A stretch of DNA of 64,000 nucleotides from Exiguobacterium artemiae 255-15. GTDB lineage: Bacteria > Bacillota > Bacilli > Exiguobacteriales > Exiguobacteriaceae. A program made the position numbers and the translations under genes. The stretch covers positions 1,762,001-1,826,000 of the forward strand of contig NC_010556.1 of the NCBI RefSeq assembly GCF_000019905.1, in the 5' to 3' direction. Of the stretch, positions 4,107-12,841 are shown piece after piece. Under the pieces are notes generated by a model. It was given only the letters and a program-made list of their open reading frames with translations. It was not told the origin of the DNA and searched no databases. How positions within the stretch are numbered: the first letter of the stretch is position 1; the number at the start of each line of letters is the position of its first letter.

Positions 4107-4774
4107 TTTAAGGCACCCTCTGCCAGTTCAGTCAGTCGCGCAACGACTTGATCAATGTTCAGTTCTGTCGTATCGAGATAAATCGCATCATCTGCCTGTT
4201 TGAGCGGTGAGACCGTTCGTTCACTGTCCCGCTTGTCGCGCAACGCGATTTCATCCTGTAATCCCTTTAAATCGCTGTCCATTCCACGGGCAATGTTCTC
4301 CCGGTGACGGCGGCTGGCCCGTTCTTCGACCGATGCCGTCAAAAAGACCTTCAGCTCGGCTTCCGGCAAGACGACCGTCCCAATGTCACGTCCATCCATG
4401 ACGATGCCTCCCCGTTCCGCCAGTTTACGTTGTGCGATGACCAGTGCTGACCGGACTTCTGCTTGGCGGGCGACAAATGAAACATTGTTCGTGACTTCAT
4501 TTGTCCGAATCGCATCCGTCACTTCCCGTTCTCCGATGAACACACGTTGTCCCTGTTCGCCCGGCGTCAGTCGGATATCAAGTGATTTCATCAATTCTCC
4601 AAGAACCGGTCCGTTCTCTAAATCAAGTCCTTGTTCCAATGCAGCCAGTGTGACCGCACGATACATGGCTCCCGTATCGATATAAACATAATCAAGATGT
4701 GATGCTAACTGTTTGGCAATCGTACTTTTCCCGGCACCTGCAGGTCCGTCTAAGGCAATTTGAATCTTCTTCAT
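4103..4774 (-). CDS. cmk: (d)CMP kinase
   Basis: Phosphorylates CMP and dCMP with ATP in pyrimidine salvage and turnover. The P-loop GPAGAGKST (residues 10-18) and the DGRDIGTVV substrate motif are clear, and the length of 223 residues fits. I start at the ATG of MKKIQIALDGP, which aligns with the family N-terminus. A longer reading from an upstream TTG adds ten residues that resemble nothing in the family. AAGGA lies 12 bases before the ATG, a rather long spacing. The stop overlaps plsC. Confidence 0.95.
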   Translation of the reverse strand: MKKIQIALDGPAGAGKSTIAKQLASHLDYVYIDTGAMYRAVTLAALEQGLDLENGPVLGELMKSLDIRLTPGEQGQRVFIGEREVTDAIRTNEVTNNVSFVARQAEVRSALVIAQRKLAERGGIVMDGRDIGTVVLPEAELKVFLTASVEERASRRHRENIARGMDSDLKGLQDEIALRDKRDSERTVSPLKQADDAIYLDTTELNIDQVVARLTELAEGALK

Positions 4775-10998: not shown

Positions 10999-11589
10999 TC
11001 AAGGTGTAAAGCTTGCGATCATTGTTGGAACGGCTTGTTCCAACAGGATGGTTTTTCCGTATTCGGACATCACGAGCGGACTTTTCGGACTGGGTACACC
11101 GTATTCCGACAAAATCGTCGTTACAGTCTGCTCGACATGTTGCTTCATTTGTTCTTGGAAGTATAAATAATAGCGGTCTTCGAAGAAATACAGTGTGCCA
11201 CCCGTTTCCGTTTGATCGATGTGACGTGCCAAACCATGACTCGCCTGAATGACATCTTCCAATTGGTCGAGTTGATAGAGGACATGATGGACGATATCGA
11301 CCGTCATCCGAATCTCAACTTGATCAAATTCCTCAAACGTTTCTTCCGGCAGGGCACCTTCACGCCGAACGTCGACCAACATACCGTCGTTCGGGAAAAA
11401 TGTTACAAAAAAGTCGAGTGTCCCGACTGCATGAAATCCATAATTCGATTCAGCTTCTTCCAGTAAATTACGTAATAAAGCCTGGCCTTTGCCGACAGCC
11501 AATGTCTCCGGTCGAACGTCATGGACCGACAGTTCTTGTTTTGATACGAAGACCCGTAAATGACCTTGCTTAAATTGCTCAAACCTCAT
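10999..11589 (-). CDS. ypbH: MecA/YpbH family Clp adaptor, divergent
   Basis: Protein of 196 residues with the MecA-family layout: a small N-terminal domain (about 1-75, beginning MRFEQFKQGHLRVFVS), an acidic linker and a C-terminal domain (about 100-185) with the FEDRYYLYFQ strand. MecA and YpbH hand substrates to the ClpC ATPase. The position next to gudB matches ypbH of B. subtilis, but similarity is weak and the N-terminal domain lacks the usual acidic run. The ATG follows GGAGGAG. It lies 59 bases downstream of the B12-binding regulator gene. Confidence 0.72.
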   Translation of the reverse strand: MRFEQFKQGHLRVFVSKQELSVHDVRPETLAVGKGQALLRNLLEEAESNYGFHAVGTLDFFVTFFPNDGMLVDVRREGALPEETFEEFDQVEIRMTVDIVHHVLYQLDQLEDVIQASHGLARHIDQTETGGTLYFFEDRYYLYFQEQMKQHVEQTVTTILSEYGVPSPKSPLVMSEYGKTILLEQAVPTMIASFTP

Positions 11590-11648: not shown

Positions 11649-12533
11649 CTATACACCAGTTGTCGGAGTGAGTCGACTTAACCAACTTTTCCAAGCGTTG
11701 TCATCGGATCCAAGTAACATATCTCCGTACTTTTCCGGATGTTGCTCAACGGCATAGCCGCCTAAACCAATTTCCGTTTGTGGTGCCTGCTTTTGAATCT
11801 GGTCAATTGCTTCATCTAAGTCCTTCAAATGATCCGAGATTGTACATGATAGCACGACTGCTCGAGGCGTCAGCTGTTTCGTCACTGTTACAAGATCCGG
11901 TACAGGAATACCCGCTCCAAGGAAGATGACATCGAATCCGCTCTGACGGAGGTACAGCGTAAAAAACAGCAATCCGAGTTCATGTTCTTCTTCCGGCGCG
12001 CAGACACACAAGATGCGTGGTAAAAATGGATTGATCGGCATTTGAAGAGACAATGTCGAGAGACGTGCCCGTAAAAAAGCGGTCGCGAAATGTTCATGGG
12101 CAATCGTAATCGTTCCCTTTTCCCATCGCATCCCGATTTCATGTAACAACGGACCGACGATGTCTTGGATGACCTTATCAAAGCTGAACATCGAAAATGC
12201 TTTGTTCATAATGTCATGGGCATGTCGTTCTTCGAAATTCGTCAGTGCTTCGAACAATTGATCCCGCAGCTCGATTCCATAATCAATCGGAACCTCCGTT
12301 CGATTCACGGGCATTTCATATAATTGAATGGCTTTTGAAACCGACAGCCCTTCTTTTTGTTTATCAACGATCCAACGCAGCTTGGCAACATCGTTATCAC
12401 TGTAAATACGATGGCCTGATTCGCTCCGATCCGGATCCAATACTTGATACCGCCGTTCCCAAGCACGAATGGTCGTCGGATTGAGTCCCACCAATGCAGC
12501 AACTGCTTTGATATTATATTTCCCACGATCCAT
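11649..12533 (-). CDS. MerR family regulator with cobalamin-binding domain (CarH/LitR-like)
   Basis: Three domains are visible in 294 residues. An N-terminal MerR winged helix begins YNIKAVAALVGLNPTTIRAWERRY (cut here to its key part: TTIRAWERRY at 20-29). A helical bundle (about 85-165) follows, then a Rossmann-like B12-binding domain (about 172-290). The helical bundle has W137-x9-E147-H148, the signature that caps adenosylcobalamin in CarH photoreceptors. The Rossmann domain has E182-x-H184-x2-G187, where H184 would be the lower cobalt ligand. Thermus CarH has His right after the Trp; here it is Glu138. The ATG lies eight bases after AAAGGAGG. Probable role: light- or B12-controlled repressor. 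Its targets are not visible here apart from its own promoter. Confidence 0.85.
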   Translation of the reverse strand: MDRGKYNIKAVAALVGLNPTTIRAWERRYQVLDPDRSESGHRIYSDNDVAKLRWIVDKQKEGLSVSKAIQLYEMPVNRTEVPIDYGIELRDQLFEALTNFEERHAHDIMNKAFSMFSFDKVIQDIVGPLLHEIGMRWEKGTITIAHEHFATAFLRARLSTLSLQMPINPFLPRILCVCAPEEEHELGLLFFTLYLRQSGFDVIFLGAGIPVPDLVTVTKQLTPRAVVLSCTISDHLKDLDEAIDQIQKQAPQTEIGLGGYAVEQHPEKYGDMLLGSDDNAWKSWLSRLTPTTGV

Positions 12534-12556: not shown

Positions 12557-12577
12557 CCTTTAGTATACCCGTAAAGG
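12557..12577. promoter_or_regulatory. Inverted repeat over the -10 box of the MerR/B12 gene
   Basis: CCTTTA, nine bases, TAAAGG. The gap contains the minus-strand -10 box TATACT (12563-12568). Bound protein would block polymerase, which suggests autoregulation. Confidence 0.55.
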
Positions 12578-12604: not shown

Positions 12605-12808
12605 TTACATCATGAAACCGATGGAGACAAAGGCAATGATAATTGTAATCATCAAAACTGTGAGTGTAATCGCGAGTGGATTTTTAGCAAATGGTTGTTT
12701 TAATCGTTCATTGCGAACGTGTTCGATTCTTGAGGATCGAGGAGGTAATGACGTGCGTTGTTGTTCATCTTGCCGATTTTTTCGTTGATCCTGTTTACTC
12801 AATTTCAT
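12605..12808 (-). CDS. Small single-pass membrane protein, unknown
   Basis: About 65-67 residues. The first 40 are highly charged (rich in Lys, Arg, Gln), then one strong hydrophobic helix (about residues 45-66) runs to the C-terminus. This is a tail-anchored layout with the basic part in the cytosol. A possible site AAAAGGTGA precedes both an ATG (12808, very close) and a TTG (12802, eight bases). I do not recognise the family. It lies between recQ and the MerR/B12 gene on the same strand, 33 bases after recQ. Confidence 0.55.
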   Translation of the reverse strand: MKLSKQDQRKNRQDEQQRTSLPPRSSRIEHVRNERLKQPFAKNPLAITLTVLMITIIIAFVSIGFMM

Positions 12809-12841
12809 CACCTTTTCTAAAAAATAAGGACTACTATTAGT

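Follow-up and report, generated by a model that had tools for sequence, protein, structure and literature searches.

A CarH-like protein of Exiguobacterium with glutamate at the upper-ligand position and a predicted operator at an Spx/MgsR-family gene

CarH, the model photoreceptor based on B12, is known as a regulator of carotenoid genes. The best match of the protein discussed here is CarH (LitR) of Thermus thermophilus (TtCarH; structures 5c8d, 5c8e and 3whp), whose operator is made of tandem 11-bp repeats, one of them holding the -35 box. More generally, CarH operators are described as tandem 11-bp repeats of the form nnnnTnnACAn that overlap the -35 or the -10 element (PMC8156234, PMC9304148; here and below, cited statements refer to the parts of the papers available to us). 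CarH/LitR of Bacillus (Priestia) megaterium comes from the same phylum as our organism; with adenosylcobalamin (AdoCbl) it is reported to be a tetramer in the dark and a dimer after light, acting on four-repeat operators (PMC8156234, PMC9304148), and crt genes have been published as its targets (PMC6739363). CtMerR of Chloracidobacterium thermophilum (8jbs, 8jbt) likewise joins a MerR domain to a light-responsive cobalamin domain and has a residue other than His at the position of TtCarH His132 (PMC11796333). On the side of the predicted target, the closest relatives are Spx and MgsR (YqgZ) of B. subtilis, which share with it the family and the CxxC motif. The B. subtilis mgsR gene is described as exclusively sigma-B dependent and autoregulated, and MgsR affects about 70 genes in the sigma-B response (PMC7235348). 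Our literature search, whose reach stopped short of the subscription papers on B. megaterium LitR, showed no pairing of CarH/LitR with MgsR/YqgZ among the matches listed.

The gene considered here lies in the window, i.e. the whole stretch of 64,000 nucleotides that was analysed (G000:C1:1762001-1826000, where G000 is the source genome of 3.04 Mb, Exiguobacterium artemiae 255-15). It occupies positions 11649..12533 on the minus strand, with an ATG at 12533 and a stop codon that ends at 11649, and encodes 294 amino acids. Three Pfam domains, all above the Pfam cut-offs, follow each other on that strand: MerR_1 (12321..12518, residues 6-71), which contains a RAWERRY recognition helix, the four-helix bundle B12-binding_2 (12051..12269, residues 89-161) and the Rossmann domain B12-binding (11730..12017, residues 173-268). 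The best phmmer match in the PDB is TtCarH/LitR (3whp, E 4.3e-37; 5c8d, E 5.1e-37) over query positions 3-262; the query was window:11649-12530:-, without the first Met and with the stop included, so that a query position equals the residue number minus 1. An AlphaFold2 model based on an alignment of 34 sequences (mean pLDDT 91.3, pTM 0.74) is matched best in the PDB by TtCarH chains (Foldseek, E 1.3e-19), and CtMerR is a structural match to it as well. The TtCarH cobalamin domains superpose on the model at 2.2-2.6 Å over 189-197 residues (Z about 19), while the rmsd over whole chains is large, 7-13 Å, probably because the DNA-binding domain is placed differently.

The original prediction had described a MerR domain fused to a helical bundle and a Rossmann domain, as in CarH, in an open reading frame with W137, E138, E147, H148 and E182-x-H184-x2-G187. 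Each of these codons is indeed present, and Pfam, phmmer and AlphaFold2/Foldseek agree on the architecture. Domain order, the W-x9-E-H motif, the lower-ligand His and the RxWERRY helix are shared with TtCarH at about 30-35 % identity (about 24 % for CtMerR). The RAWERRY helix matches the DNA-reading helix of known CarH, for which RxWERRY is the named motif (PMC9304148). The score against the CarH equivalog model NCBIfam NF052513 is 171.9 bits, below its cut-off of 400. By family and by pocket, sequence comparison places the gene as the Exiguobacterium orthologue within the broad CarH/LitR family of AdoCbl photoreceptor-repressors, and from this we infer AdoCbl binding and a response to light. 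The gene itself is not new, since Eab7_1666, its counterpart in E. antarcticum B7, already carries a MerR/cobalamin annotation and has a published model built on 5c8a (PMC6016940); it is a counterpart by position, with RecQ (Eab7_1668) two locus numbers away, just as in the window.

All four residues by which the CarH pocket can be recognised are in register with TtCarH, as the prediction supposed. Trp137 (codon 12123..12125, here and below on the minus strand) corresponds to Trp131, and Glu147-His148 (12090..12095) to Glu141-His142, which together give the adenosyl-holding motif W-x9-E-H. His184 (11982..11984) corresponds to the lower ligand His177 and belongs to the motif D/ExHxxG, present as E182-x-H184-x2-G187. 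The alignment also puts Glu138 (12120..12122) against His132, the upper ligand of TtCarH after light, as had been claimed; hence a His after the Trp that could serve as upper ligand in a bis-His state is not found in this protein. In TtCarH the subunits are joined by a salt bridge between Arg176 and Asp201, and the residues that align on these two are Glu183 and Gly208. As the Arg-Asp pair is missing, the oligomer switch of TtCarH cannot be assumed here. The light-responsive signature of SignatureFinder (GxxW, EH, GxxH, GxxxP; PMC11796333) is incomplete in the window protein: GxxW, EH and GxxxP are present and the Gly of GxxH is Glu181.

We disagree with the original prediction on one point, that Glu138 would be a special alteration of this protein. 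Glu is found at the 132 position in 31/31 Exiguobacterium loci read (window included), all of which keep the four pocket residues, and in 29 of the 32 loci with an intact pocket among other Bacilli, so that we reject the idea of a rare change. The latter sample comprised 41 loci (nine with a broken pocket) from 39 of the 96 genomes outside Exiguobacterium that gave a match; the duplicate rows L001, L114, L119 and L128 were left out of the residue counts. Among 80 named loci, 52 of them from Bacillota (five of these Exiguobacterium), Glu occurs in 37 of the 40 intact Bacillota and is therefore the rule there; the 27 intact named loci of other phyla, mostly Chloroflexota, have Tyr (11), His (8), Phe (5), Glu (2) or Ala (1). 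The locus of Priestia aryabhattai (L381) reads Trp-Glu, as in the window protein, unlike that of P. megaterium CH447_14T (L389), which reads Trp-Arg. What stands of the earlier interpretation is thus the CarH-like fold and pocket, the Glu at the His132 position and a regulon located elsewhere; what does not stand is the peculiarity of that Glu.

Other members, described as light-responsive, have Arg (CtMerR), Gln (SasPcob) or Tyr (AbDPcob) at this position, and the light structures of CtMerR and SasPcob contain no bis-His state; water or hydroxide is instead placed close to the cobalt or bound to it (PMC11796333, PMC10979010). CtMerR has Arg rather than Glu, but together with Glu138 these structures lead us to expect that the light state here is not bis-His either. 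In our opinion, the light-adapted state likely differs from that of TtCarH, by analogy with these proteins, but it would then be the common state for this branch.

Twelve of the 52 named Bacillota proteins have lost at least one of the four pocket residues (L363, L385, L390, L397, L398, L402, L403, L404, L408, L410, L414 and L415). These loci had been found through MerR-domain peptides, and it is possible that they represent repeated turns to B12-free regulators similar to CarA of myxobacteria.

A carH-like gene is present in 38/38 genomes of the family, 19 in the genus of the window and the rest in the sister genus. In 23/23 genomes searched (the 19 of the window's genus and four of the sister genus) its product is the only PF02310 match over the cut-off, with weak matches under the cut-off in six of them, and a PduO-type adenosyltransferase is found in all 23. 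The PduO match in G014 (G014:C1:2695760-2696173) holds an in-frame TAA, and this genome keeps carH. It is conceivable that the cell uses its adenosylcobalamin mainly for CarH; that this would be the sole use can only be suggested, since a PF02310 search leaves out class II ribonucleotide reductase, the diol and ethanolamine lyases and QueG.

In the window, the order is carH, a mecA-like gene (10999..11589, minus strand, downstream of carH), ddl, glutamate dehydrogenase and ypdA, a neighbourhood common to other Bacilli. In the related Bacillaceae loci L130-L143, the carH-like gene adjoins, by eye, a MecA-like (12) or a YpdA-like (2) frame in 14/14 cases, which argues for vertical descent. In the tree, the window protein falls into a supported Exiguobacterium clade among Bacillota. 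The likely -10 box of carH, TATACT at 12562..12567 on the minus strand, has no tandem TnnACA array beside it, hence there is no sign of autoregulation at this promoter. Directly upstream of carH lies an open reading frame of 68 amino acids (window 12605-12811, minus strand) with a basic N-terminus and a hydrophobic stretch at the C-terminus; it may be a shortened YpbE, as its LPPRS stretch resembles, by eye, proteins encoded near carH in other Bacilli which we take for YpbE.

A candidate operator was sought in 38 Exiguobacterium genomes as three successive tandem 11-bp nnnnTnnACAn repeats. Arrays of TCCACA were rejected as CarH sites, since we take them to be DnaA boxes near the origin (DnaA box TTATCCACA; e.g. 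G000:C1:94). With such arrays set aside, two three-repeat sites recur in 19/19 genomes of the window's genus. The first of these, site A, is TGTACAATAGTTGTACAAAAGGTGTACA in G000 and lies upstream of an Spx/MgsR-family gene. At this mgsR promoter at least two tandem repeats are present in 38/38 genomes of both genera; the last repeat forms the -35 box and stands 17 bp (36 genomes) or 18 bp (2) before TATA[AGT]T. The repeats largely persist in the second genus, with spacers that have changed. Of the 38 genomes, 34 contain the strict pair TGTACA-N5-TGTACA, always at the mgsR promoter, and seven have one further place each. The extra pairs of five genomes (G000, G013, G017, G004 and G011), which share two sequences between them, look like chance; in G000 and G011 the extra pair adjoins enolase, by eye, and the remaining extra places are in G027 and G032. 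The second recurring site, site B, is TTTACA three times at 11-bp steps (L221 6269-6296, i.e. G000:C1:1196268-1196295), followed in G000 and G008 by a DeoR-family gene and CutC. Site B may possibly be a second CarH site; we keep it as a candidate only, because no promoter fits it.

The predicted target (G000:C1:933891-934274) is outside the window, which bears out the claim that the regulon is elsewhere. It scores 109.7 bits with TIGR01617 (cut-off 75.05) and 126.2 bits with NF002459 (cut-off 123), and its translation contains the CxxC motif as CTSC. DUF2626 and comG-like frames (comG by eye) are found near it, as they are around mgsR of B. subtilis. The promoter in Exiguobacterium looks like one of the primary sigma factor combined with a CarH-type operator, unlike that of B. 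subtilis mgsR; given the pure sigma-B dependence in B. subtilis (PMC7235348), the wiring in Exiguobacterium must differ. The target also differs from TtCarH, in that an Spx/MgsR gene, not crt, is predicted.

The same pattern is seen in other Bacilli. An mgsR orthologue was located in 11 Bacilli outside the family that have a carH-like gene of 42-46 % identity, with gene starts set by the CxxC pattern and not by the annotation. Upstream of it, at least three tandem repeats stand in 9/11 (those of G071 lie on the opposite strand), two in G321 and none in G389; none is found either at mgsR of the more distant G047, whose carH-like gene (38 % identity) has an intact pocket. Counted over Bacilli outside the family with an intact carH, the operator is present at the mgsR orthologue in 10/12 examined. 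Of shuffled upstream regions, 1.6 % reach two repeats and 0.013 % reach three, and the chance of the 9/11 placements is about 1e-30 if shared ancestry is ignored. Spx-type paralogues in nine of these genomes are without tandem repeats in eight cases, and G321 has two. Of the genomes that have no canonical carH, seven (G053, G058, G057, G055, G037, G041 and G048, the last with a broken pocket) have no tandem repeats at mgsR. A degenerate triple, TTGACA-TGAACA-TTTACA, is seen at mgsR of G050, which has no carH-like match, and a two-repeat match at mgsR of G043, whose carH relative is pocket-less. Genome-wide, the 15 genomes searched from the carH group contain 68 three-repeat places and 13 matches to the reversed control pattern, as compared with 10 and 14 in eight genomes that lack a carH-like match. 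In carH-bearing relatives, the repeats at mgsR include non-palindromic ones such as TATACA and TAAACA. On these several lines of evidence, we conclude that the TnnACA array is a CarH operator, its binding by the protein being predicted. Four carH-bearing genomes have no close mgsR orthologue; two of them have two tandem TnnACA repeats before an Spx-like gene (G310, locus L303; G215, locus L304, on the opposite strand), and G349 and G365 have none upstream of it.

As to carotenoid and photolyase genes, their predicted absence from the neighbourhood holds: the genome has two PF00875 and two PF00494 matches, all outside the window. An operator near crt or phr had also been envisaged; however, no three-repeat array is present in the Exiguobacterium stretches scanned, namely crt of G000, G008, G018 and G019 and the photolyases and pduO of G000 and G019. 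The crt, photolyase and pduO promoters were therefore dropped as three-repeat targets, as they contain isolated two-repeat matches only. With carH itself also lacking such an array, the classic CarH targets are without the pattern in the Exiguobacterium sequences read. The second photolyase of G000 closely follows a frame of 1156 aa, by eye a pyruvate carboxylase.

A single repeat is found in the crt promoter of 16 of the 21 genomes that could be aligned, as TTTACA in 15 of them and as TGTACA in one. The crt operon promoter has GGGAAA in 21/21 and an upstream GTTT in 18/21 aligned regions (two of 23 could not be aligned), which by consensus we assume to be sigma-B-like. In the spacer there is an inverted repeat, ACAA-N4-TTGT (L110 about 4530-4560, G000), whose arms are kept in 18/19 genomes of the window's genus (G008 being the exception) and whose centre varies; this suggests a further regulator of carotenoid genes. 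A gene named carH is listed among those near crt in Exiguobacterium SH31 (PMC6158405). We see no CarH in the crt stretch of G000 and take this to be a matter of naming.

In a wider set of 84 three-repeat places from 28 genomes, 20 chosen stretches were read, with genes named by eye from translations: the array lies upstream of a crtN-type operon in six genomes and of a photolyase in one, and 13 stretches have no target that could be named. At crtN the repeats are oriented opposite to the gene. In three carH loci (G310, G278 and the more distant G129) the array is upstream of carH itself.

The mechanism that we propose, and consider rather probable, is repression of mgsR by AdoCbl-bound CarH in the dark and its release by light. 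Family, pocket, the operator array with its place, and conservation are read from sequence; AdoCbl binding, the light response, repression and the effects downstream of MgsR we infer. In the dark, the AdoCbl-bound protein would sit on the two to three tandem 11-bp TGTACA-type repeats and block the -35 box of mgsR. Light would cleave the Co-C bond, and with Glu138 the Co(III) would probably take water or hydroxide as its ligand and form no bis-His state. The protein would then leave the DNA, the Spx/MgsR-type regulator would be made, and it would redirect RNA polymerase to redox and general-stress genes. Targets of MgsR might include the carotenoid operon with its sigma-B-like promoter, and a cascade from light over CarH and MgsR to carotenoids would be a natural hypothesis. 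Several points weigh against the mechanism: the equivalog score under its cut-off, the incomplete light signature and the changed Arg176 and Asp201 positions, the lack of three-repeat arrays at the carH, crt, photolyase and pduO promoters read, the triple at mgsR of G050 and its absence in G389 and G047, and the pure sigma-B dependence of mgsR in B. subtilis.

The protein could instead be a sensor of cobalamin that reports the AdoCbl supply to the mgsR promoter, with Glu138 making photolysis unproductive. Indeed, the H132A variant of TtCarH is photolysed, yet most of it stays tetrameric after light (PMC10442372), and since no other PF02310 protein exceeds the cut-off in 23/23 genomes, a B12 response could well use the carH-like protein. 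However, all 31 Exiguobacterium loci read retain the Trp and the Glu-His by which the adenosyl group is held, CtMerR and SasPcob respond to light without the His (PMC11796333, PMC10979010), and similar arrays at crtN and photolyase promoters of other Bacilli point to light. We regard a pure cobalamin sensor as unlikely. Much the least probable, in our opinion, is a B12-independent regulator of the CarA kind that keeps its pocket residues by descent only. The losses in 12/52 named Bacillota indicate that B12-free variants may arise in this branch, but the retention of all four residues in 31/31 Exiguobacterium loci speaks against this, and so does an adenosyltransferase that is kept though no other PF02310 protein over the cut-off was found.

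It can also be argued that the protein is a CarH-type photoreceptor but that the TGTACA array at mgsR serves another regulator, the true CarH targets being weak sites such as the single repeat at crt. As a palindrome, TGTACA could suit a repressor that acts as a dimer; there are reports of CarH operators with a single true repeat (PMC9304148), and the crt promoter does have its TTTACA or TGTACA in 16 of the 21 aligned genomes. Against this stand the exact 11-bp phasing and the overlap with the -35 box in 38/38 genomes, the non-palindromic repeats at mgsR of carH-bearing relatives and at some carH and crtN promoters, and an excess of arrays that is confined to the carH-bearing group. We rate this possibility slightly below that of the cobalamin sensor, and we retain light-released repression of mgsR by CarH. 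A broader statement we make only tentatively: that throughout the Bacilli an Spx/MgsR regulator is under the direct control of CarH, and that in Exiguobacterium, where one clearly conserved target was found, this is perhaps the main use of AdoCbl, with a Glu-pocket light state unlike bis-His.

If this is true, the redox and general-stress programme would receive green or blue light as a direct input at the level of transcription, and a large group of Gram-positive bacteria would have light sensing coupled to the control of thiol and general stress. As the Glu pocket is usual among the sampled Bacillota, the bis-His state reached by Thermus CarH in the light may not be typical of most family members, and Glu-type pockets offer ready natural variants for photochemistry and optogenetics.
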